DNA of 64,000 nucleotides from Verrucomicrobiota bacterium. Its GTDB lineage: Bacteria > Verrucomicrobiota > Verrucomicrobiia > Chthoniobacterales > Terrimicrobiaceae. A program made the position numbers and the translations under genes. Location of the stretch: NCBI GenBank assembly GCA_026398275.1, contig JAPLTF010000066.1, positions 1 through 64,000 of the forward strand. The letters run 5' to 3'. Each line of letters begins with the position of its first letter. Position 1 is the stretch's first letter. The notes beneath the pieces were generated by a model, which was not told the origin of the DNA, ran no database searches, and saw only the letters and a list, made by a program, of their open reading frames with translations. Shown in pieces: positions 1 to 10,079 of the stretch.

Positions 1-256
1 CGGTCACAAAATCCCGCGAAAACATCACGGTCGCGCTGCGGACAACTTCAGCGACAAACCACCATGTTCATTTTCCCATTTAGTTTAATTCCATGAGAAC
101 CTGTTTTTTCAGCTTTACACTATTTTTCCGGACACTCCCTCAACCCTCGTGATTGTGCTTGTGCCTGATAATGAGCATTATACGCTCAAAAAACGCCTGT
201 TTTTTAGGCTCTAAAATGGCCCTTTTTGATGTAAAGTAACCCCCTCAACTTTACAT
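1..256. other. Left-edge stretch without a supported gene
   Basis: No convincing coding region is seen here. The stretch is clearly more AT-rich than the rest of the window and has runs of A and T around 186-212. Close to the end of the next gene there are three copies of the heptamer ACTTTAC or its complement (233-239, 248-254, 259-265), which could be a protein-binding site. On the minus strand a short open frame with ATG near position 25 leaves the window at base 1, but it is too short to identify. Confidence 0.4.
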
Positions 257-568
257 TCACTTTACGTCACGGGACCCCGAAATGACGGGTTCGCGGTGAT
301 TTCCGCGCGAAGAGCGGTTGAGGCTCACTTTGAGCGGTCGTTTTGCCAGTGGTTGAGGCTCAGAATGCGAAAAGTGGACACGCCAATTTTTCAGATCCTG
401 CTTCGTCATCACGATGACGGTCGCGCTGCCCAAGGAGCCGGCTGGGCGAATGACTCCTTCGCGGATGGCCCGGAGCATTCGGGTTTCAGGAACGTTCAGA
501 AGGCGGCACAGTTCGCTCATGCTGATGAGCGTCAGAACGTGACGGGATTTTTTGATTTGGATAGCCAT
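257..568 (-). CDS. Excisionase-like helix-turn-helix DNA-binding protein
   Basis: This 103-residue protein is probably a small DNA-binding protein. Residues about 17-60 form a MerR/excisionase-like winged-helix pattern: the helix MSELCRLLNVPETRMLRAIR, then a short wing and the ending VMTKQDLKNW. The C-terminal 40 residues are rich in Arg, Ser and Lys and look disordered. Such proteins direct excision or control transcription in phages and integrative elements. It is the last gene of a minus-strand block whose other members are also phage- or plasmid-like, and about 200 bp separate it from the ParB-like gene upstream. No integrase is present in the window, so a role in excision is only inferred. 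Confidence 0.6.
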   Translation of the reverse strand: MAIQIKKSRHVLTLISMSELCRLLNVPETRMLRAIREGVIRPAGSLGSATVIVMTKQDLKNWRVHFSHSEPQPLAKRPLKVSLNRSSRGNHREPVISGSRDVK

Positions 569-623
569 AACGCCGAGGTTGGCGTGTCAACCCGAACGAA
601 GCGTACGATCCCGCTCCTGATTG

Positions 624-662
624 ACCACCGGAGCCGGTTGAGCTTCCGGGTGATCTACTGGG
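624..662 (-). pseudogene. Decayed copy of the 3' end of the ParB-like gene
   Basis: Bases 624-662 match bases 773-811, the last codons of the ParB-like gene, at 32 of 39 positions in the same orientation. Read in the corresponding frame the copy gives Q-stop-ITRKLNRLRW against QWITRTLNQPRW of the intact gene, so a Trp codon has become TAG. This is a fragment of an old tandem duplication. The rest of the 569-770 interval shows nothing recognisable. Confidence 0.55.
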
Positions 663-770
663 CGGCGCGAGAGGCAGGAGGGCAACTGTTGCCCCTCTGC
701 TCTTTTGCCTTTCCCTTTCGCGTGACACACCAACCTTGCGGTGCAGAAACCCGAACAATCCGCGCCTAAT

Positions 771-1526
771 TTACCAACGGGGCTGGTTGAGGGTCCGGGT
801 GATCCACTGGTAGACATCCCTGTGCCTGTTGAAGGGGATGTCTTTGATGAAAGGCTCCCAGCGCTGTGCTAGGATGTCTTCCAGGGGACGTTCCCGCTTT
901 AGTGTCGGGAGTGGCGGGAATGCCGCCTCGATGATTTCCTTGCGGGTTCGCTTTTCCGTCCCGGCCATGACCTCCTTGGTGATGCCGAGTTTCGCGACCG
1001 CCGCCGCGAATTTGGCGTCCCTTGCTATTGTTCTGGCTGAGACGCCTGTTTTTTTGGCGATTGCATCGGCGATTGTTTCAGGACTGCCACTGTGGCAGTC
1101 CTCAGTTTTTGGCACTCCACCTGGGTTTGCGCTGACCCCCGGCTTGAACAACCGTTCCTTCGCCGGAATACGCTCGGCGGTGTAGAGTTTGCCCCGGAGC
1201 AACGCCGCCGCGTCCGGGGGCAAGTTGCGCCGGCCAAGCTGGTTGTTGATGATCCAGTCGAGCGCGTTTTCGCGCGTGTCGAAAACCAGCTCGGTCGTCT
1301 GGATCTCGTCCAACCTGCCAAGCTCGTGCAAAATCTCGTATCGGTTGTGACCGTCCACGAGGATCGTCTGGCCCTCGTGGTTCCAGACAATCAGCGGGGA
1401 GAGGAGCCCTGTGCGCTCGATGTCCTGCCTCAGCATCTCCCGCTCGGTTTCGGTGAGCGGCGGGCAGTGGGCGCGGAATTCTTCGTCAATGGTGATGATG
1501 TCGCAGGAGGTAGGAAGTAGAGACAT
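771..1526 (-). CDS. ParB/Srx-fold nuclease-like domain protein
   Basis: The 251-residue protein starts with a ParB N-terminal (ParB/Srx fold) domain, about residues 10-95, with the characteristic ILVDGHNRYEI segment at about 54-64 that binds CTP or substrate in ParB relatives. A linker follows, then a helix-turn-helix-like stretch (AIAKKTGVSARTIARDAKFA) at about residues 153-172. This layout is typical of ParB-like proteins on phages, plasmids and integrative elements, where they act in partition or transcriptional control; it is not the chromosomal ParB. The gene lies downstream of the SWIB gene but beyond a strong terminator, so it probably has its own promoter. Whether it acts in partition is not shown, because no ParA is adjacent; the window's parA is 9 kb away. 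Confidence 0.75.
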   Translation of the reverse strand: MSLLPTSCDIITIDEEFRAHCPPLTETEREMLRQDIERTGLLSPLIVWNHEGQTILVDGHNRYEILHELGRLDEIQTTELVFDTRENALDWIINNQLGRRNLPPDAAALLRGKLYTAERIPAKERLFKPGVSANPGGVPKTEDCHSGSPETIADAIAKKTGVSARTIARDAKFAAAVAKLGITKEVMAGTEKRTRKEIIEAAFPPLPTLKRERPLEDILAQRWEPFIKDIPFNRHRDVYQWITRTLNQPRW

Positions 1527-1565
1527 GATGCCGACGGGGCCATGTCAACCGCCCATCCGGGCATG

Positions 1566-1609
1566 AAAAATCCCCGGCAGCCCGTTTCCGGAACTGCCGG
1601 GGATTTTTT
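1566..1609. terminator. Strong bidirectional intrinsic terminator
   Basis: A 15-bp perfect stem (AAAAATCCCCGGCAG at 1566-1580 and CTGCCGGGGATTTTT at 1594-1608) with a 13-base loop is flanked by T runs on both strands. It directly follows the stop codon of the SWIB gene at 1621 on the minus strand and would end that transcript before the ParB-like gene. Confidence 0.9.
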
Positions 1610-1620
1610 GGAGATTGCGA

Positions 1621-1920
1621 TTACTTGACGTGCGCCGAAACGAGCTTGGCCATCTCGAACATGCTGACTTGCTTCTTGCCGCCGAAGACCGCCTTGAGCG
1701 CGTCGTCCGCGTTGATCTGGGTCCGCTTCTTGGGATCCTGAAGGTTGTTCTTCTTGATGTAGTCCCAAAGCTTCTTGGTCATTTCACTGCGGGGCAGCGG
1801 CTTTGATCCGACGATGACGGAGAGCACGGCATCCGGCTGGATGGGTTTCATCAGCGCCGGGTTCAGTTTGCGGGCGGGTTTCGAGGCGGGCTTGGCTGTT
1901 GGTTTTTTTGCGGTTGGCAT
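1621..1920 (-). CDS. SWIB/MDM2-domain protein
   Basis: The 99-residue product begins with a Lys/Ala/Pro-rich tail (MPTAKKPTAKPASKPARK), followed by a SWIB domain from about residue 20 to the end: an SVIVGSKPLPRSEMTKKLWD core, then YIKKNNLQDP and the final FEMAKLVSAHVK helix. SWIB domains occur in eukaryotic SWI/SNF subunits and, in bacteria, mainly in Chlamydiae and other PVC members, either alone or fused to topoisomerase I. The start at 1920 is preferred over an upstream start because it leaves only 5 bases after the H1-like gene and opens with the basic tail. With the H1-like gene it forms a two-gene chromatin-like unit that ends at the terminator at 1566-1609. The biochemical role in bacteria is unknown; DNA or nucleoprotein binding is inferred. 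Confidence 0.85.
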   Translation of the reverse strand: MPTAKKPTAKPASKPARKLNPALMKPIQPDAVLSVIVGSKPLPRSEMTKKLWDYIKKNNLQDPKKRTQINADDALKAVFGGKKQVSMFEMAKLVSAHVK

Positions 1921-1925
1921 AGAAA

Positions 1926-2393
1926 TCAGGCTTTTGCTGCGCGACGTGCTGCCCACCGGGCCTTCATGTTGGCCGCGAGTTTCGCGCGTCCTTCGGGGGT
2001 GAGACCGCTTTTCTTTTTCACCTTGGCTGGCTTGCCTGCCTTGGGAGCAACGACAACCTTGGCGGTTTTGCTTGCGCGGCGTGCCGCCCAGCGAGCCTTC
2101 GTGGCAGCGGAGATGCGGGCGCGGCCCTCGGCACTCATTGTCCGCTTCTTGGCCTTTGGTGCTTTGACGGTTTTAATCGGCGCGACGGCAACCGGATTTT
2201 TTGCTGCCGGTGCTGGCCGTGCGATTGCGGGTGATGCGACAACTTCGACCGAGATCCCACCCTGGAGGGTCCTGATGATTTCGGCATCAATCTGTTCGAG
2301 GATCTGGAGGATTTCTTCCTTCTTCTCCGTCAGGCTGAGCAGATGGAGAAGGGATTGGCTGTTGATGAGTGATATATCCATGCTTGGAAGCAT
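1926..2393 (-). CDS. Histone H1-like basic protein with duplicated motif
   Basis: The 155-residue protein has an acidic/leucine-rich N-terminal helix (about residues 10-45, with SLTEKKEEILQILEQIDAEI) that looks like a coiled-coil or dimerisation segment. A Lys/Ala/Pro-rich tail follows. It carries two copies of a basic helix: MSAEGRARISAATKARWAAR at about 85-104 and LTPEGRAKLAANMKARWAAR at about 131-150, joined by a linker rich in AKxxKxAK. The composition resembles bacterial H1-like proteins such as chlamydial Hc1/Hc2, and the duplicated GRA-(K/R)-(I/L) motif suggests two DNA-contacting helices. It sits 5 bases upstream of the SWIB gene. A second ATG at 2381 is an alternative start. Nucleoid binding is an inference from composition and context. 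Confidence 0.75.
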   Translation of the reverse strand: MLPSMDISLINSQSLLHLLSLTEKKEEILQILEQIDAEIIRTLQGGISVEVVASPAIARPAPAAKNPVAVAPIKTVKAPKAKKRTMSAEGRARISAATKARWAARRASKTAKVVVAPKAGKPAKVKKKSGLTPEGRAKLAANMKARWAARRAAKA

Positions 2394-2466
2394 CGAGTAA
2401 GAATCAGATCAACGGCCTAATGCAATAGCAAATGCCTGACCGCTCACCCGATATAATCCGCTCATG

Positions 2467-2501
2467 CCGCCCTCGATTGCGTTCAACGTGCGGCTTGGGA
2501 C
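2467..2501 (-). pseudogene. Fragment of a second small-endonuclease gene
   Basis: Bases 2467-2501 match 3018-3052 inside the intact endonuclease gene at 29 of 35 positions, same orientation. The translated fragment reads PSRTLNAIEGG against PSRTLIEIEGG, which is the conserved acidic core of that enzyme family. Flanking sequence no longer aligns well and contains stops, so this is the remnant of a duplicated or exchanged gene. It overlaps the 3' end of the small cysteine protein in another frame. Confidence 0.5.
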
Positions 2502-2773
2502 GGTGGCTCGCAGATTTTCTTCTGATCGAGTGAATCTCTTTTTTCTCTGAAACATTTCCGATGCCCGGTGAACATATCAAAACGCTGCTCATCGGAAAAA
2601 GAGGCAAGAATTCGGATTCTTTCCGCCACTGGGTTTGTCCGAAGCTCGTAGCAGATGCATTTCTCCGGGTTCCCCCCTTCCATCGGACACTCAAAACTGA
2701 GTCCGGCAAGATAAGTCCGAATAGATGCGTTGTCTGACAGTAAATTCACCTTTTCAAATTCTGAAGGTGTCAT
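2483..2773 (-). CDS. Small cysteine-containing conserved-type protein
   Basis: The 96-residue protein has the order C-P-x(6)-PEKCICYELR, then NPVAERIRILASFSDEQRFDMF, then GHRKCFREKR. This resembles a family of small proteins, found in Planctomycetes and Verrucomicrobia as far as I recall, with spaced cysteines before an ERI-x-W/L-LSDEE helix. Its function is unknown; metal binding by the cysteines is possible. The last 10-12 residues run into the decayed endonuclease fragment in a different frame, so the natural C-terminus may have been altered by that insertion or duplication. Confidence 0.55.
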   Translation of the reverse strand: MTPSEFEKVNLLSDNASIRTYLAGLSFECPMEGGNPEKCICYELRTNPVAERIRILASFSDEQRFDMFTGHRKCFREKRDSLDQKKICEPPSQAAR

Positions 2774-2817
2774 CCTGTAGCATCAATCCCCGTGATTGGG
2801 AATTCTCGTTTTTGAAT

Positions 2818-3198
2818 TTACATCATGGGGGAAGAGAAACATCCCGGTTGAGAGGATGCCAATTTCACGAAGAGCACGATCCGCTCCACGGCTTCGAGCG
2901 TGAGCTGGCGCTCCGAGAGACGCAGGACAGTCCAGTCAGCCATGGCCGCCTCGAAGTATTTTTCGATGTCGGCCAGGAATCCCTCCGCCCGATTGTGCCG
3001 GCCCTGAATCCAAATTCCGCCCTCGATTTCGATCAGGGTGCGGCTCGGGATGTGGGCGAAGTCGGCTCGCCAGCGGCGACCGGGATGAAAGACGAGTTCC
3101 TTTTCAAGGGCTGGGCCGTTTGCTGCCCGCCAGAGGAAGGCAAATCGGGCTTCCAGGCGGGACGGAGATCGTTTGTCACGGAATCGGAGACGGGGCAT
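2818..3198 (-). CDS. Small VSR/PD-(D/E)XK-like endonuclease
   Basis: The 126-residue protein has the plan of small phage-type endonucleases related to Vsr and Holliday-junction resolvases: an N-terminal basic stretch, EKELVFHPGRRWRADFAH (about residues 33-50), then RTLIEIEGGIWIQGRHNR (about 53-70) and EKYFEAAMADWTVLRLSE (about 78-95). The acidic residues in ADFA and EIEGG and the following basic residues fit the PD-(D/E)XK arrangement. In phage genomes such proteins act in recombination or DNA repair. It lies between two small cysteine-containing genes. A decayed fragment of a second copy lies 0.5 kb downstream. The exact substrate is not known. Confidence 0.75.
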   Translation of the reverse strand: MPRLRFRDKRSPSRLEARFAFLWRAANGPALEKELVFHPGRRWRADFAHIPSRTLIEIEGGIWIQGRHNRAEGFLADIEKYFEAAMADWTVLRLSERQLTLEAVERIVLFVKLASSQPGCFSSPMM

Positions 3199-3229
3199 CC
3201 CCAGGGTGCGGAGTCAACCTTTTGCCGAA

Positions 3230-3427
3230 CTACCGATCTGCTACCGATTTATCCGCAATCGGTAATTCAGCTTTTCGCGTCCACTCCCATCCCCTGCCAT
3301 GGACATGTGAGACCTTGCACCCGCACTCAAAAATGAGTCCGGCGAAAATGCAATGCGACACGGGCTGCCGCCCATGCCACGGACATTCGCCGTGGAGCAG
3401 GTTCACCGTTTTTGTCGAATCGCTCAC
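3230..3427 (-). CDS. Small cysteine/histidine-rich protein of unknown function
   Basis: The 65-residue frame contains C-P-W-H-G, H-C and C-G-C-K-V-S-H groups, which could form a zinc site. Its ATG at 3427 overlaps the stop codon of the upstream gene (TGA at 3424-3426) as ATGA, the same coupling used elsewhere in this block, which supports it being translated. I recognise no family. The last 15 residues look less protein-like, so confidence is moderate. Confidence 0.45.
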   Translation of the reverse strand: MSDSTKTVNLLHGECPWHGRQPVSHCIFAGLIFECGCKVSHVHGRGWEWTRKAELPIADKSVADR

Positions 3428-3672
3428 AGCAAGTCCGGCTGATTCGGATCCGGCACGCTCGTCTCGATTTCGTCGGTGAGCGATTTGGAGATCCGGGACG
3501 TGACCTTCAGTTTTGTTGGCGAGTGGGAGCGGTCGAATGTGACCTTGAACCCGATGCCGAATTTCCCGTCCTCGTCCGCCGAGTCAACGGCTTCGGTATA
3601 ATGGGAGGTGAGGAGTTCAGTGATCGCGTCGAGGGCGGCTTTTTGTTCGGAGTTGGCGGGTAGTGTGGTCAT
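3424..3672 (-). CDS. Small phage-type protein of unknown function
   Basis: The 82-residue, acidic protein (MTTLPANSEQKAALDAITEL at the start) has a central beta-like segment GKFGIGFKVTFDR followed by LKVTSRISKSLTDEIETSVP. It has a plausible alpha-beta layout and no membrane segment. Its start ATG at 3672 overlaps the upstream stop as ATGA and its stop overlaps the next start, so it is a middle member of a translationally coupled set. I do not recognise a named family; similar short proteins are usually annotated as phage hypothetical proteins. Confidence 0.6.
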   Translation of the reverse strand: MTTLPANSEQKAALDAITELLTSHYTEAVDSADEDGKFGIGFKVTFDRSHSPTKLKVTSRISKSLTDEIETSVPDPNQPDLL

Positions 3673-3851
3673 TGTTGGAGAAGGTGGAGTTCGAGTTGAG
3701 AGGTGAGTTTGATGATCTGGACGGCTTCGGTGAGCCGGTTCCTGGCGGCGACGAATGCGGCCCGGCGGATGCCCAAGCGGGGCTGCCCGTTAATGTCGCT
3801 ATTGCCGACATTAGAACGGGTGAGGCCAATCATGCTGTTGCCTCGTTGCAT
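3669..3851 (-). CDS. Small protein coupled to the antirepressor gene
   Basis: A 60-residue frame follows the antirepressor gene, beginning inside its 3' end (22-base overlap), and its TGA overlaps the ATG of the next gene. A second ATG at 3833 would give a 54-residue product (MIGLTRSNVG...). The C-terminal half (RRAAFVAARNRLTEAVQIIK) is a likely amphipathic helix. The product has no family that I recognise. The start/stop overlaps on both sides are the main support. Confidence 0.45.
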   Translation of the reverse strand: MQRGNSMIGLTRSNVGNSDINGQPRLGIRRAAFVAARNRLTEAVQIIKLTSQLELHLLQQ

Positions 3852-4462
3852 GCGAGTTGGAATTCGAGTTGGCTGACGTGGAGGTTGAATGCGGCGGCGT
3901 CCTTGAGTCGGTGGAGTGCCTTGGTGACGCTTCCCCGGCGAAGTCCGGTGAATGGCTTTCCGTCGTCGTCAATCGTGCCGTAGAGGTGGAGGTTGCTCGG
4001 GAGCACGGCAGCGATGATCTTCTCCTGGGTGCGCGACAACTCGCGAAAGTGGAGCGCCGAGGTCAGGACTTCGTCGTAGCTGTGCTTGAATGCCGCCTTC
4101 CTTGCCTGCTCCTCGACCTGGATGAAATACCGGCGGGCGAGCTTTCCCTTTTCGTTGTTCTCGACCATGGATAACTCCTTCGCCATCGCGGTCGCCAGGT
4201 GGTATTCGATGCAGGGCCGCCCGCCTTTGGAGGTTTTCCCCAAATTTGGGGAAAACTCACCGCTGCCACATTTTGAGTTCGCCAAATTTGGCGCGCTCAA
4301 CTCTTCGACAACAACGAAGTCTTTGTCCTGCTCAAATCCGTATTGCTGAATGCGGTTGTTGATCCAAGTGGAAAAATCCTTCCCCACCCCCATCCTCGAA
4401 TGCTGATTTACCCCCACCGGGTTTCCACGCACACCCGCTTGCGAAAGTCGTTCCTTCCGCAT
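3830..4462 (-). CDS. AntA/AntB-family phage antirepressor
   Basis: The 210-residue protein carries an AntA/AntB domain in roughly residues 15-110: MGVGKDFSTWINNRIQQYGF, then the DKDFVVVEE strand, the Gly/Arg-rich GGRPCIEYHL and AMAKELSMVENNEKGKLARR. In coliphages such as P1, AntA/AntB-type proteins inactivate the lysogenic repressor. The C-terminal half (about 110-210) is helical and may bind the target repressor or DNA. It is the first gene of the minus-strand block and lies directly downstream of the GACGAAC repeat cluster, which is a natural operator region. No repressor gene is visible in the window. A start at 4393 (MGVGKDF) is possible but would cut into the domain. Confidence 0.85.
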   Translation of the reverse strand: MRKERLSQAGVRGNPVGVNQHSRMGVGKDFSTWINNRIQQYGFEQDKDFVVVEELSAPNLANSKCGSGEFSPNLGKTSKGGRPCIEYHLATAMAKELSMVENNEKGKLARRYFIQVEEQARKAAFKHSYDEVLTSALHFRELSRTQEKIIAAVLPSNLHLYGTIDDDGKPFTGLRRGSVTKALHRLKDAAAFNLHVSQLEFQLACNEATA

Positions 4463-4487
4463 TAAAATTGGCGCGGAGGAGGAGGGG

Positions 4488-4652
4488 TCGTCTGTTCGTC
4501 TTTGGTCGTCTTCAGTAGTCCAGGGACGAACGAAATTAGTCGTCTAATTTGGGGTTCGTCCCCGTCCCTATATAGGACGGGACGAACCTCAAAGACGACG
4601 AACCTACAAAGACACACCAAACACGAGTCCGTCCCGGGACGACTGGACGAAC
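4488..4652. promoter_or_regulatory. Cluster of GACGAAC/GTTCGTC repeats and palindromes (operator or iteron region)
   Basis: Six copies of the heptamer GACGAAC or its complement lie within 159 bp: GTTCGTC at 4494-4500 and 4554-4560, GACGAAC at 4525-4531, 4581-4587, 4597-4603 and 4646-4652. Extra GTCGTC/GACGAC hexamers occur at 4488, 4505, 4539, 4594 and 4638. Two of the heptamers form the arms of an almost perfect inverted repeat (4553-4588) centred on TATATAGG at 4570-4577. Beside it a perfect palindrome AAATTAG-TCGT-CTAATTT lies at 4533-4550. The array is immediately upstream of the antirepressor gene (ATG at 4462, minus strand). Such an arrangement fits an operator region bound by an element-encoded repressor, or plasmid-type iterons. 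Which of the two cannot be decided here. Confidence 0.7.
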
Positions 4653-4861
4653 CGAGCGAGATTTTCCCCACCGCTCCTCCGCGTTGACCAGGCGAAAAAA
4701 ACGGCCGCGTGAAAGTCCGGTTGGCGACAACTCGTGCAGGCGGATCGGGGAAGATGCCATGTCAGCAACAGCGGGCGATGCCTCCTCCGCGACAATGCGT
4801 GCGAAGCGAATCGCGCATGACGAAAGCCAAGGGTTGAATCCCAACCAGACCATCACCGCGT

Positions 4862-5420
4862 TTCGCCAGAATGGCCGCCAGAGCGACTTTCCCGCCGCAG
4901 ACATGTCGTGGCCGCGATCGGGCGCTTCCGGGAACTCCTGTGTCAGATTTTCAGCGAGCACATGGATCGACTGCGCCCCAGGCCAACACTGCCCGCGTTC
5001 ATGTTTCCCAGTTCCGCCGACAAGGTTGCTGCGCAACGAAAATTGTGCCGAACCGTTGGTCGCGGAAATGCGGGCGAATACTGAAACAGTTTTGCACACC
5101 AATCGGTGCGGGTCTGCGTGGCGAACTCAACCGGCGATCTTCTCAGCCTGACATCGGGCATTGATGACTCCGCTGCTGTGGCATATTGATTCGGCATGAC
5201 CGCGCGATTTGGGAAGCAGGTGCGACGATTGCTTCACCTGTCCTCCTGCGAACACTCTGCGAGACGATGCGAATTCTTCATGCAGATTTCATGCAAACCG
5301 GAAGTATTCCACGCGAAATCTTGCAACACCTCAAAATCTTGATAACGTATAAACCGTTATGGAAACGCATGTTTACGCAAACAGCGCGCTTCCTGAATCA
5401 GACAGGATGACCAAGGCACG
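4862..5420 (-). repeat. Interspersed repeat, copy A, split in two parts
   Basis: On the minus strand, 5420-5366 (CGTGCC.TGG.CATCCTGTCTG and onwards) and 4990-4862 both match the contiguous element at 63451-63630 on the plus strand. The first part is about 90% identical over 49 bases. The second part (from GTCGATCCATGTGC to TCGCTCTGG) is lower but unmistakable, with a 3-base indel. In this copy the two parts are separated by about 375 bp (4991-5365), which hold no recognisable gene and include a tandem TTCATGCA at about 5277-5296. Either this copy has an insertion or copy B is the shorter form. It ends exactly where the fau gene begins. The 4653-4861 stretch shows nothing recognisable. Confidence 0.75.
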
Positions 5421-5960
5421 ATGATGAAAGCGGAAAAAGACTCCCTTCGAAAAAAAATGCGCAGGCTCGCCCGCCACTGCGTCCCCGCGCGATCCGCCGG
5501 CCTGGCCGAACGTCTTCGGGGGTGGACGTTCTGGCAGTCGGCCTCGTGCGTCTGCGCGTTCTCCGCGCTTGCTGGCGAACCGGATGTCCTCGCTCCCTGG
5601 CCGGAAGGAAAACGGATCGCCATGCCGCGGGCGGAGGGAGATGATCTTCAATTCCACTGGGTCGCCAGCCGGGCGGAACTCCGGCCCGGACGGTTCGGGA
5701 TCCTTGAGCCCGCAGCGCAGGCCCCCGATGCCGGCAGCGGGTTTGATCTGATCCTCGTGCCCGGTCTGGCATTTGATCTCCGGGGCGGAAGGCTGGGCCG
5801 CGGAAGGGGATTTTATGACCGCTTCCTCTCGAACGCACGCGGGCTGCGCGTGGGCGTTTGCTTCGAGGATCAGATCGTGGGCGACGTTCCTGAGGAGCCG
5901 CACGACCTGCGGATGGATTTTGTGGTCACGCCTTCCGCAATTTCCCGCTGCGGATTTTGA
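5421..5960 (+). CDS. fau: 5-formyltetrahydrofolate cyclo-ligase
   Basis: This 179-residue protein converts 5-formyl-THF to 5,10-methenyl-THF using ATP. The N-terminal KxxLRKKMRRLAR helix fits the ATP-binding region, and the signature GFDLILVPGLAFDLRGGRLG followed by RGRGFYDRFL (about residues 107-137) is the family's folate/phosphate-binding motif. Length is usual for the family. Two adjacent ATGs (5421, 5424) are possible starts. The 3' end overlaps the convergent exonuclease gene by 35 bp. It starts directly at the edge of repeat copy A, so the repeat supplies its upstream region. The folD pseudogene at 16.2 kb belongs to the same C1-folate pathway. Confidence 0.9.
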   Translation: MMKAEKDSLRKKMRRLARHCVPARSAGLAERLRGWTFWQSASCVCAFSALAGEPDVLAPWPEGKRIAMPRAEGDDLQFHWVASRAELRPGRFGILEPAAQAPDAGSGFDLILVPGLAFDLRGGRLGRGRGFYDRFLSNARGLRVGVCFEDQIVGDVPEEPHDLRMDFVVTPSAISRCGF

Positions 5961-6540
5961 AATAGCTCTCAAGCCCGGCCGCCTTGAGCACCTCCGCCCC
6001 GGCATCGGCCAGCCCGCAGACCGCGATCAAATGCCGGAGCAGCACGAGCGAGGCGATGGCATCGCAGCGGGCGTCATGCCAGCGAAAACCCCCGTCCTGG
6101 ATCTCCGGTTCCTTTTCCAATCCGAGCGCCTTGATCACCTCGCCCAGCGCGTGCGAGGCAAGGCCGGGATACACGGCACGGGCGAGGTCGAGCGTGTCCA
6201 CCCACGGGCCGAACGAGTGGAATGGAAATACCCGCAGGAACCGCTTCTCCGTGCCCGCGCCGTGCGCGACGATCCAGCTCCCCTCCATGTCGGACTTGAT
6301 GCGTGGCCACAGGTCCACGAGCCGCGGCGCGTCCTGGATCATGGAATCCGTGATGCCATGGACTTTCCGGGCTGCCCAGGTGACCGAGCTCCCGGCTTTC
6401 ACGTAGGAGCAGAGCGACGGCGCGATCTTTGACCCGAGCAGATGCACAATCGCAATCTGCACCGGCTCGTCTGTCCTGCCGGGCGCGGCTCCCGCGCCCT
6501 CAAAATCAATCGCCGCAAACCGTGTTTCGCCGATCCTCAA
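5926..6540 (-). CDS. DEDDh 3'-5' exonuclease (DnaQ-like)
   Basis: The 204-residue product has the DEDDh exonuclease motifs: Exo I FAAIDFEGAG (D and E) near residue 10, Exo II in the WIVAHGAGTEKRFL region (about 90-103; H and A in place of the common N-A-x-F-D), Exo III with HDARCDAIASLVLL (about 167-180; H and D). It is probably a stand-alone proofreading or RNA-processing exonuclease. No ATG precedes the first motif in frame; the start proposed here is TTG at 6540, which overlaps the stop of the DAHP synthase gene as TTGA. That implies translational coupling. The canonical Exo II aspartate (NAxxD) is not obvious, so activity is not certain. Confidence 0.75.
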   Translation of the reverse strand: MRIGETRFAAIDFEGAGAAPGRTDEPVQIAIVHLLGSKIAPSLCSYVKAGSSVTWAARKVHGITDSMIQDAPRLVDLWPRIKSDMEGSWIVAHGAGTEKRFLRVFPFHSFGPWVDTLDLARAVYPGLASHALGEVIKALGLEKEPEIQDGGFRWHDARCDAIASLVLLRHLIAVCGLADAGAEVLKAAGLESYFKIRSGKLRKA

Positions 6541-7649: not shown

Positions 7650-8888
7650 TCAGTGTTCCATTTTCACGCCCCGGCCGCCGAGCCGGTCCGAGCCGCTGAG
7701 CCTCGGCCACGCATAGCCGTAGAAGGCCACGAACGCGAAGCAGACGAGCGGGACAATGAACGCTCGCGACATCCCGTGGAGGTCGCCGACATGCCCCATC
7801 AGCTTCGGCAGGATCGCTCCGCCCATGATCGCCATCACGATGAATGCCGACGCCTGCTTCGCCCGCTGCCCCAGGCCGTGGATGCCCAGCGCAAAAATCG
7901 TCGGAAACATGATCGACATGAAAAAGTAGCTCAGGAACACGCAGGCCACGGACAGCCAGCCCAGCTTGAGAAACACCAGCAGGCAGACGATCACGTTGAG
8001 AAGCCCGTAAAGTCCGAGCACCTTGTGCGCGGCAAATTTTTTCAGGATGGCCGCCCCGCTGAACCGTCCGGCCAGGAAGAAGATGAACCCGAGCGACGCC
8101 AGCTGCGCCGCCCCCTGGTCGCTCAGCGCCAGCGCCCCGGTCTTCCCCGCCTGAAACCACGACTTCAGCAGGCCCGACGTCCAGGAATCCGGCAGCGGGG
8201 GAGTCTGCGTGGTCATGTAGTTGATGAAAAAGCTGAAGATGCCCGCCTGCGCGGCGACGTAAAGAAACTGGGCGCACACGGCCAGGACGAAGTGCGGCTG
8301 CTTCCAGATCGAACGCCTGATGTCCGGCCCGGAATCATCGAGATGGTAGTCGTCCTCCATCTTCACATCCGGCACGGGCGCGAAGAAAAAGACGACGGCA
8401 AGGACGAGCACCACGACACCGACTGCGGCGTAGGGAATCCACAGGGTTTCCGACCCGGTGCTCGCGCCGGCGGCATCCTTCCCGTAAAAGAACATTCCGC
8501 CGGCGATGGGGCCGAAGATCCAGCCGATCCCGTTGCACGACTGCGCGAGGTTGATGCGCGTGGCGGCGTAGCGCTGGTCGCCCAGCACGGTCGTGTAGGG
8601 ATTCGCGATCGTTTCCAGGAACGTCAGACCGGCGGCGATGATGCAGACGCCGAGAAGAAATGCCCAGAACGAGGCGATGTGGGTCGCGGGGATAAACCAG
8701 AACCCGCCTACCGCGACCATCAGCAGCCCCGCAATAATGCCGCCCTTGTAGCCCAGTTTGGTCGCCAGCCATCCGGCGGGCAGCGCCATCAGGAAATAGC
8801 CAAGGTAGTGCGCGAACTGGACCCAGGCCGACTGCGCGAGCGTCAGCTTGAGCTCGGTCTGGAAATGCTTGTCCATCACGTCGATCAT
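7650..8888 (-). CDS. FucP-like sugar permease, MFS, with damaged or unusual start
   Basis: This is a major-facilitator transporter of the L-fucose/glucose-galactose permease family. The encoded 412 residues contain the family motifs CNGMIDVMDKHFQ (just before and at the start), LGYFLMALPAGWLATKLGYK, FLETIANPYTTVLGD and the C-terminal FGI/LG repeats, with 11-12 membrane segments. The family's first helix (…SSLFLLWGFCNGMIDVM…) is encoded upstream in the same frame, from about 8957, but there is no in-frame ATG, GTG or TTG between the TGA at 8961-8963 and ATG 8888. A perfect AGGAGG (8952-8957) precedes an out-of-frame ATG at 8950. So the gene may be frameshifted near its start, or may start at a CTG. 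It follows manC by about 22-96 bp. Confidence 0.8.
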   Translation of the reverse strand: MIDVMDKHFQTELKLTLAQSAWVQFAHYLGYFLMALPAGWLATKLGYKGGIIAGLLMVAVGGFWFIPATHIASFWAFLLGVCIIAAGLTFLETIANPYTTVLGDQRYAATRINLAQSCNGIGWIFGPIAGGMFFYGKDAAGASTGSETLWIPYAAVGVVVLVLAVVFFFAPVPDVKMEDDYHLDDSGPDIRRSIWKQPHFVLAVCAQFLYVAAQAGIFSFFINYMTTQTPPLPDSWTSGLLKSWFQAGKTGALALSDQGAAQLASLGFIFFLAGRFSGAAILKKFAAHKVLGLYGLLNVIVCLLVFLKLGWLSVACVFLSYFFMSIMFPTIFALGIHGLGQRAKQASAFIVMAIMGGAILPKLMGHVGDLHGMSRAFIVPLVCFAFVAFYGYAWPRLSGSDRLGGRGVKMEH

Positions 8889-8984: not shown

Positions 8985-10079
8985 TCAGAGAAGATCCTGC
9001 CCGTGGTCGTCCCCGACGCGTTTGTGGAGGGCCTTGATGTTTTCCGCCTGGTCGGCGTGGCAGACGAGTGTTGCGTCCGGCGTGTGGATGATGATCAGGT
9101 CCTCGCAGCCGATCGCGGTGATCAGGTGGTCGGGATCGCTTGAGGCGACGAGCGTGCGGCGGGTGTCGAGGAGCGTGTTGCGTCCGCCGCCGGCCGCGTT
9201 GCCATCCGCATCGCGCGGGCAGGTCTCGGCGAACATCGGCCAGGAGCCGACATCCAGCCACTGGAGCGGCATCGGGACGGCGGCGACGCGGACCTGCGGG
9301 TCGCGCGAGGCAGGCTCCATGACCGCGAAATCGACGCTGATCTTTTTCAGTGTGGGAAAGATTTCCGCGAGGACGGCGTCGCGCTGCGGGCTGTTCCAGG
9401 CGGCACCGATCTTTTCGATTCCCGCGAAATTCTCCGGCTCGTAGCGGCGGATGCAGTCGAGAAGCGTGGACGCCCGCCAGACGAACATCCCGCTGTTCCA
9501 GAGGTAGCGCTCCGCCCCGGCGGCGAAGTAGGTGCCGGCGGTTTCGGCATCCGGCTTTTCGCGGAACTGCCCGACGACGCGCGCAGAACCATCGATGGCG
9601 TCACCGAGTTCGAGGTATCCGTATCCGGTGGCCGCAGCGGTCGGCGTGATGCCGAACGTGACGAGCGTTGGGGAGGCCTCCTCGGCCAGCCGGAACCCGT
9701 GCTCGACAATTTTCAAAAACTGATCCACCGGCTCGATGATGTGGTCGGCGGTGAAGACGGCGATGACGGCATCCGGGTCGCGCGCGGCGATCGCGGCGGC
9801 GCTGAAACCGACGGCGTTGAGCGTGTCGCGGCCGATCGGCTCGCCGAGAAACTGTTCCTGCGAAAAGCCGTCGAGCGCGGCCGCGATGACATCCGCATGT
9901 CCCCTCCCCGCGCAGATGTAGCGGTTCGATGCGGGGACGAGTCCATCCAGCCGGTCAAATGCAAGCTGGAGCAGGCTTTTGCCGCCAATGAACGGAATGA
10001 GTTGCTTCGGGAGCCTGGCCCGGCTCATCGGCCAGAGCCGTGTTCCCGAACCGCCGGCAATGATCAGCGCGTGTCTCAT
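8985..10079 (-). CDS. manC: Mannose-1-phosphate guanylyltransferase
   Basis: The 364-residue protein makes GDP-mannose from mannose-1-phosphate and GTP for surface polysaccharides or GDP-fucose. It starts with the nucleotidyltransferase signature IIAGGSGTRLWPMSRARLPK (about residues 6-25). It has FTADHIIEP, GYGYLELG, FREKPD and YLWNSGMFVW in the usual order, which are typical of the ManC family. It lacks the C-terminal isomerase (cupin) domain of bifunctional ManC/AlgA proteins and ends after the guanylyltransferase domain. The neighbouring FucP-like permease fits a link to sugar metabolism, but that is inference only. Confidence 0.9.
   Translation of the reverse strand: MRHALIIAGGSGTRLWPMSRARLPKQLIPFIGGKSLLQLAFDRLDGLVPASNRYICAGRGHADVIAAALDGFSQEQFLGEPIGRDTLNAVGFSAAAIAARDPDAVIAVFTADHIIEPVDQFLKIVEHGFRLAEEASPTLVTFGITPTAAATGYGYLELGDAIDGSARVVGQFREKPDAETAGTYFAAGAERYLWNSGMFVWRASTLLDCIRRYEPENFAGIEKIGAAWNSPQRDAVLAEIFPTLKKISVDFAVMEPASRDPQVRVAAVPMPLQWLDVGSWPMFAETCPRDADGNAAGGGRNTLLDTRRTLVASSDPDHLITAIGCEDLIIIHTPDATLVCHADQAENIKALHKRVGDDHGQDLL

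Follow-up and report, generated by a model that had tools for sequence, protein, structure and literature searches.

The repeat cluster just before the antA gene in the window (the whole 64,000-nucleotide stretch of DNA analyzed here) is probably the orphaned replication origin, of the iteron/stem-loop kind, of a phage-like or satellite-like mobile element, and would be recognized by the C-terminal tail of a helicase. The first-pass annotation had offered iterons for replication of a plasmid-like element as one of its two readings, and this reading is supported by the position of the array, by the order of its words and by the association with a helicase gene in relatives.

Architecture of the array

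The six heptamers described in the first-pass annotation, GTTCGTC/GACGAAC, are present (minus strand at 4494 and 4554; plus strand at 4525, 4581, 4597 and 4646), as are the five GTCGTC/GACGAC half-sites (4487, 4505, 4539, 4594 and 4638) and the 36-bp inverted repeat, which consists of a perfect palindrome of 34 bp plus two additional C. There is likewise an AAATTAG-TCGT-CTAATTT palindrome (4533-4550), but it is broken in the second copy of the array in this genome (on contig C49) and is thus not a conserved part of it. The six heptamers do lie within the 165 bp originally delimited, but the feature is larger, forming a nested foldback over about 4470-4684 (Table 1). In it one short word, in both orientations, surrounds a central hairpin of the CCC..TATA..GGG type.

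That this density exceeds chance was borne out: none of 300 dinucleotide shuffles of the segment reached six copies of any 7-mer, and none of 1596 same-length windows of the 64 kb holds six copies of one 7-mer. GACGAAC occurs 13 times in the 64-kb window against 12.3 expected, six of these inside the 165 bp, and outside the cluster the heptamer is no commoner than chance. The folding z-score was obtained for the 221-nt foldback 4470-4690, and the two strands of the array fold about equally well. In the C49 copy one outer-arm pair is G-C where the window has A-T, both arms having changed. The AT content of the array reaches a maximum of 60% in 30 bp, with no clear AT-rich stretch.

Table 1. Positions of the array, its parts and the neighboring features in the window
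Feature	Positions	Strand	Basis
ParB-like protein encoded by the same decayed phage-like element	771..1526	-	PHROG ParB-like matches; copies on C49, C41 and a viral contig
antA body (AntA/AntB, PF08346), 5'-truncated at the recombination junction	3830..4395	-	Pfam E 2.5e-18; DNA match to a viral contig, 97.6% identical, stops at 4395
False N-terminus of antA, left over from a different coding sequence (..RKERLSQAGVRGNPVGVNQHSRMG)	4387..4462	-	85% DNA match of 4387-4752 to C49 2208-2598
Entire nested foldback	4470..4684		Outer arms 4472-4481 and 4674-4683; fold z -7.2
Left word set, + + + - + +	4487..4560		GTCGTC 4487, GTTCGTC 4494, GTCGTC 4505, GACGAAC 4525, GTCGTC 4539, GTTCGTC 4554
Palindrome GGTTCGTCCC(C)GTCC(C)TATATAGGACGGGACGAACC, serving as hairpin at the center of the array	4553..4588		Same type as hairpins of phage arrays (CCC..TTTA/TATA..GGG)
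Right word set, all inverted	4581..4652		GACGAAC 4581, GACGAC 4594, GACGAAC 4597, GACGAC 4638, GACGAAC 4646
Right flank kept in common with the C49 copy	4690..4752		Within the 85% match to C49
Remnant of the region upstream of hthR (Xis-like)	5012..5058	+	85% over 47 bp to C49 2624-2670, E 9e-9
Remnant of the 173-aa gene after hthR	5063..5134	+	78% over 73 bp to C49 3223-3295, E 7e-10

Copies in the same genome and the junction in antA

Direct searches of the contigs of this genome, an incomplete assembly of 117 contigs of which several end inside this element, found one other full copy of the array (C49:2310-2534, 93%) and a left-half copy, also on C49 (C49:1318-1373; locus L023, 1304-1371), which has a 10-bp deletion and lies just upstream of an intact ParB-like gene. 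The full copy on C49 is flanked by a leftward DUF2786 phage gene and, rightward, by a small Xis/MerR-like gene that we call hthR and then by a gene for a 173-aa protein; there is no antA. To the right of its array, the window keeps remnants of the region upstream of hthR and of the 173-aa gene in the same order as on C49 (array, hthR, 173-aa gene). No helicase gene adjoins either full copy.

The antA gene has an ortholog of 97% identity on an IMG/VR contig (IMGVR 3300029268_002252; L032/L054), where it is part of an operon, begins with an N-terminus of its own (MNNLNALLPVADLEVG..) and lacks the array. Homology between the window and this contig breaks off within antA, and residues 1-25 encoded by the window's antA ORF derive from the left flank of the array. 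In that flank (4387-4462) the differences from C49 in the minus-strand frame are mostly synonymous, as read by eye, and the remnant bears a weak likeness to a ParB-like linker (E 0.37). The array therefore adjoins antA because a rearrangement fused a truncated antA to its left flank. The first-pass annotation had offered, as its other reading, the operator of an unseen repressor that the antirepressor relieves, and the place of the array immediately before the antA ORF speaks for it; we regard this as the least probable of the readings weighed here, since the array is absent at the orthologous antA, whose 5' region differs, the junction cuts antA at 4395, and the other full copy is not upstream of antA. 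Absence of the array upstream of antA in relatives had been named at the outset as what would refute that reading. By these sequence comparisons the link between antirepressor and array is false, an accident of rearrangement.

With antA cut at 4395, a foreign left flank and the ordered remnants of hthR and the 173-aa gene, the copy in the window is probably a rearranged relic, which lacks the helicase, has lost the Xis-like gene by deletion and has a truncated antA fused to its left flank. Because no helicase lies beside it, we call it an orphan rather than a working member.

Several other features of these elements were seen. A second decayed block of ParB/SWIB/DUF559-like genes lies on C41 (L028, 16645-19685, against window 257-3672), 86% identical and truncated within an 82-aa gene. 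A SWIB/MDM2-domain protein (PF02201, E 6.6e-27) is encoded in a phage-like operon at 1621-1956(-) of the window and also in the viral contig. The same viral contig (L054, reverse strand, 4058-6490) carries a DEAD-type phage helicase ORF with an apparent intein-like insertion (..VKPTGCHAPGSPILMADGSLR..HHNSGKT..) in its Walker A motif, as read by eye. Inside an antirepressor/BRO-like ORF (L023, 5739-5811) a stretch with the palindrome AGTCGGTGACAAATTGTCACCGACT is tandemly duplicated. The element family shares an end region of 200-300 bp (window 85-318; L023 6229-6504; L085 8155-8394; L057 144-431; L087 5286-5523) with repeated ACTTTACRT words, possibly integrase arm sites, and a core CTATTACCTATCAATGACTTAGG; a matching repeat at the other end was not found, nor were att repeats at the ends of an integrative element. 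Many genes of the family (ParB-like, HTH_17, hthR) have TTGACA 13-16 nt ahead of their ATG, a shorter distance than an ordinary -35 box would have (window 1548(-), 590(-); L023 2668(+), 1297(-), 475(-); L085 9478(+); L087 8439(+), 5647(+)), and in the window 3 of 14 TTGACA stand in this way before an ORF, against 18 of 401 for anagrams.

Related arrays in other genomes

The GTTCGTC array itself was found in no collection searched outside its own genome. Its DNA had no true match in phage and plasmid collections, viral contigs or genome contigs, and DNA and covariance-model searches over the family, order, class and phylum returned it from its own genome only. Three 20-mer matches in other phyla were set aside as they carry no array, and the weak model matches L064-L067 and the DNA match L030 proved to be ordinary sequence without one.

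Foldback arrays, each with a word of its own, lie upstream of hthR on another contig of this genome (C23, L085) and in other genomes of the same order (L087, L089, L090), these relatives having been found by a search with the 173-aa protein. The C23 array (9159-9377) uses the word TGCGCCATG and folds with a z-score of -16.7; in a related stretch (C49:5195-5406) the word is TGCCCCATG, with the change at one and the same position in several copies and in both arms. The array of L087 (genome G076, 8188-8345) uses CTCGTC, and the two of genome G059 (L089 and L090, with the control region of the latter at 2232-2387) have GGGACGSTTGGGAC arms that change together. In homologous arrays the word changes in several copies together, though the p-values of the paired changes are generous because the structure was chosen on the same alignment. 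The hthR proteins of C49, C23 and L087 are 53-58% identical, while the words of their arrays are wholly different. Direct alignment of the window array with that of L087 scored 92.5 against a background maximum of 88, just above background.

In L087 the array starts a few bases past the stop of an AAA_25 helicase gene, which is preceded by a primase-like ORF, so assigned from an SGGKSxHxW motif read by eye and without a Pfam match. On the viral (phage) contig, the AAA_25 homologue precedes an AT-rich stretch that contains CTGCAAAAA repeats as well as an inverted repeat. Of the gene set typical of SaPI/PICI elements (int, rpr/stl, xis and pri-rep), an Xis-like gene and a primase and helicase are seen in relatives; an integrase was seen only beside one distant relative (L088).

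Arrays behind AAA_25 helicase genes

A search of viral contigs for the helicase gave 80 loci, of which 34 were non-redundant with a C-terminal tail of at least 40 aa. An array-like 3' region follows 21 of these 34 tailed helicases. The same holds for 13 of 267 control windows, taken as the 220 bp behind other ORFs of at least 200 aa (Fisher p 4e-15), and for none of 10 tail-less helicases (p 6e-4 against the tailed ones). With the thresholds applied, no array was called behind the remaining 13 tailed helicases, and since counting k-mers alone misses arrays of degenerate words, 21 of 34 may be low. Location directly 3' of the helicase gene is accordingly seen in L087 and in these 21 viral loci, and is not seen in the window or on C49. 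The first word mostly lies 0-20 bp past the helicase stop in the viral loci, and the words include GGACA, TCCAA, GCCAA, GGTGAA, TTCACG, TTCTAC, CTCCGC, TGCCGC, CTGACA and CTGCAA; L145 and L165 have CTGACA, L099 has GGACA and L098 has TCCAA.

Most viral arrays have a central hairpin of type CCCCCTTTAGGGGG. Reading the orientation of the words around the hairpin (marked by a slash), the order is +++-++/----- in the window, +++-++/---- in L087, +++-++/-- in L141, +++-++/-+ in L149, +++-++/-++ in L105, ++-++/-- in L104 and ++++-+/-- in L108. The string +++-++/- is common to the window, L087, L141, L149 and L105, the last four of which use other words than the window; this comparison was made after the strings were seen.

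The helicase tail and the word

The tails carry helix-turn-helix signatures in sequence (weak Pfam HTH matches and alignments). A model of the tail has three helices, with pLDDT of 78-88 in that part, and its nearest solved folds are homeodomain-DNA complexes, none of them significant by E-value. Similarity of the words follows similarity of the tails (Mantel r 0.59; partial r 0.26 given helicase-domain identity; p <0.0005), shared ancestry being only partly removed. By eye, two AVTERTIWRWW tails go with CTGACA, two RTFRRKWQQ tails with GGACA, and two STFxTKWE tails with (T/G)CCAA-type words. Such covariation is what direct recognition of the word by the tail would predict, with shared ancestry partly remaining as an alternative.

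We lean slightly toward a broader proposal, namely that phages and satellites with AAA_25 helicases share a self-contained initiator-origin module, in which a homeodomain-like tail on the ring helicase would read a short word, and the origin behind the gene would repeat that word in a set order on either side of a hairpin. Rapid joint change of tail and word would then yield, from a single architecture, many origins that do not cross-react.

Alternative explanations

The words could be an operator cluster, bound by a repressor that the element encodes or by hthR, the Xis/MerR-like protein, and controlling the operons on either side. The array on C49 does lie upstream of hthR and between oppositely directed genes, and the partial copy there (C49:1318-1373) is just upstream of the ParB-like gene, with a deletion that corresponds to one helical turn. 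Nevertheless we consider this unlikely, because hthR is conserved among contigs on which the words differ completely, the words track the helicase tail instead, and in viral contigs the array stands behind a helicase gene and not a repressor gene.

Strong folding, which is still stronger in the C23 copy, and the paired changes in the arms would also suit a structured RNA, that is, a non-coding RNA or a leader working through its hairpin. We find this more improbable still, as the two strands fold to much the same extent, some copies of the word persist unpaired (for example, the three central copies in C23), an Rfam search of the array gave no match, and the correlation of word and tail points to recognition of DNA. 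The terminal inverted arms and nested palindromes are likewise reminiscent of an independent mobile repeat (MITE/REP-like) or a protelomerase site, but either is very improbable: the genome holds only two full copies and one partial copy, with homologous flanks on both sides and no further copies at unrelated sites, and a telRL-like protelomerase site was rejected as the protelomerase family PF16684 was not found in the genome by a search whose control was positive. Against the replication-origin reading itself stand the absence of a helicase gene by either full copy and of a clear AT-rich stretch, unlike in PICI origins.

Proposed mechanism and implications

In the replication-origin reading, intact relatives have genes for a primase-like protein and for a ring helicase of the AAA_25 (RepA-like) kind just upstream, with the putative origin starting a few bases past the helicase stop. 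This putative origin is a foldback of about 200 bp, with short words in the order +++-++, a central hairpin and then ----, followed in this element family by the small Xis-like gene. The C-terminal helix-turn-helix tail of the helicase may bind the words on both sides, so that the helicase assembles on the DNA, plausibly as two assemblies on the opposed word sets. The central stem would then melt or extrude, and the partner primase would prime.

An AAA_25-related phage protein is a 5'-3' helicase, and in 2022 AAA_25 proteins were said to have no described function (PMC8965321). From the association described here, a specific candidate role follows for many of them, that of an origin-binding replicative helicase, and it predicts where the origin of each element lies and which word it uses. 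As word and tail vary together inside one architecture, they form a natural series on which to test the evolution of initiator-origin specificity and the ways in which related phages and satellites avoid cross-replication. If the module proposal is true, it would amount to a natural protein-DNA recognition code.

Comparison with known systems

The closest parallels are the origins of SaPIs and PICIs. The C-terminal domain of SaPI Rep acts on iterons downstream of its own gene (PMC7581432), and the PICI ori lies 3' of rep with two sets of iterons (PMC6092414). The arrays described here similarly have short words in two sets, directly downstream of a helicase gene whose C-terminal domain recognizes them in the known systems and is predicted to do so here, and the words vary by element (PMC6092414, PMC7581432). 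They differ in that the helicase is AAA_25/RepA-like and not of the SaPI Rep type, and in that the array folds back around a GC-flanked central hairpin; the copy in the window, moreover, has no clear AT-rich spacer between the iteron sets and no adjacent rep gene. In the putative origin of the SCCmec cch2-ccrC region the helicase also binds repeats just downstream of its own gene and has a primase partner, but the repeats there are three 5-nt direct iterons, and inverted repeats are dispensable for binding (PMC7581432).

Plasmid pRN1 needs a stem-loop of about 100 bp just 3' of its gene for a primase-helicase-winged-helix protein, of which the structure is kept and the sequence varies, and phage BIP-1 has been reported to have a similar loop 3' of its rep genes (PMC4234260). 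In pRN1 the helicase is of the SF3 class and no word array has been identified, whereas here the words are explicit and ordered and the associated helicase is AAA_25, so that the array does not follow a primase-SF3-winged-helix gene. At the oriV of RSF1010, RepA is the helicase, RepB' the primase and RepC a separate initiator. The relatives of the window array are like RSF1010 in combining a RepA-type ring helicase with a dedicated primase (PMC8965321), but in place of a separate initiator such as RepC the helicase itself carries a predicted DNA-binding tail.
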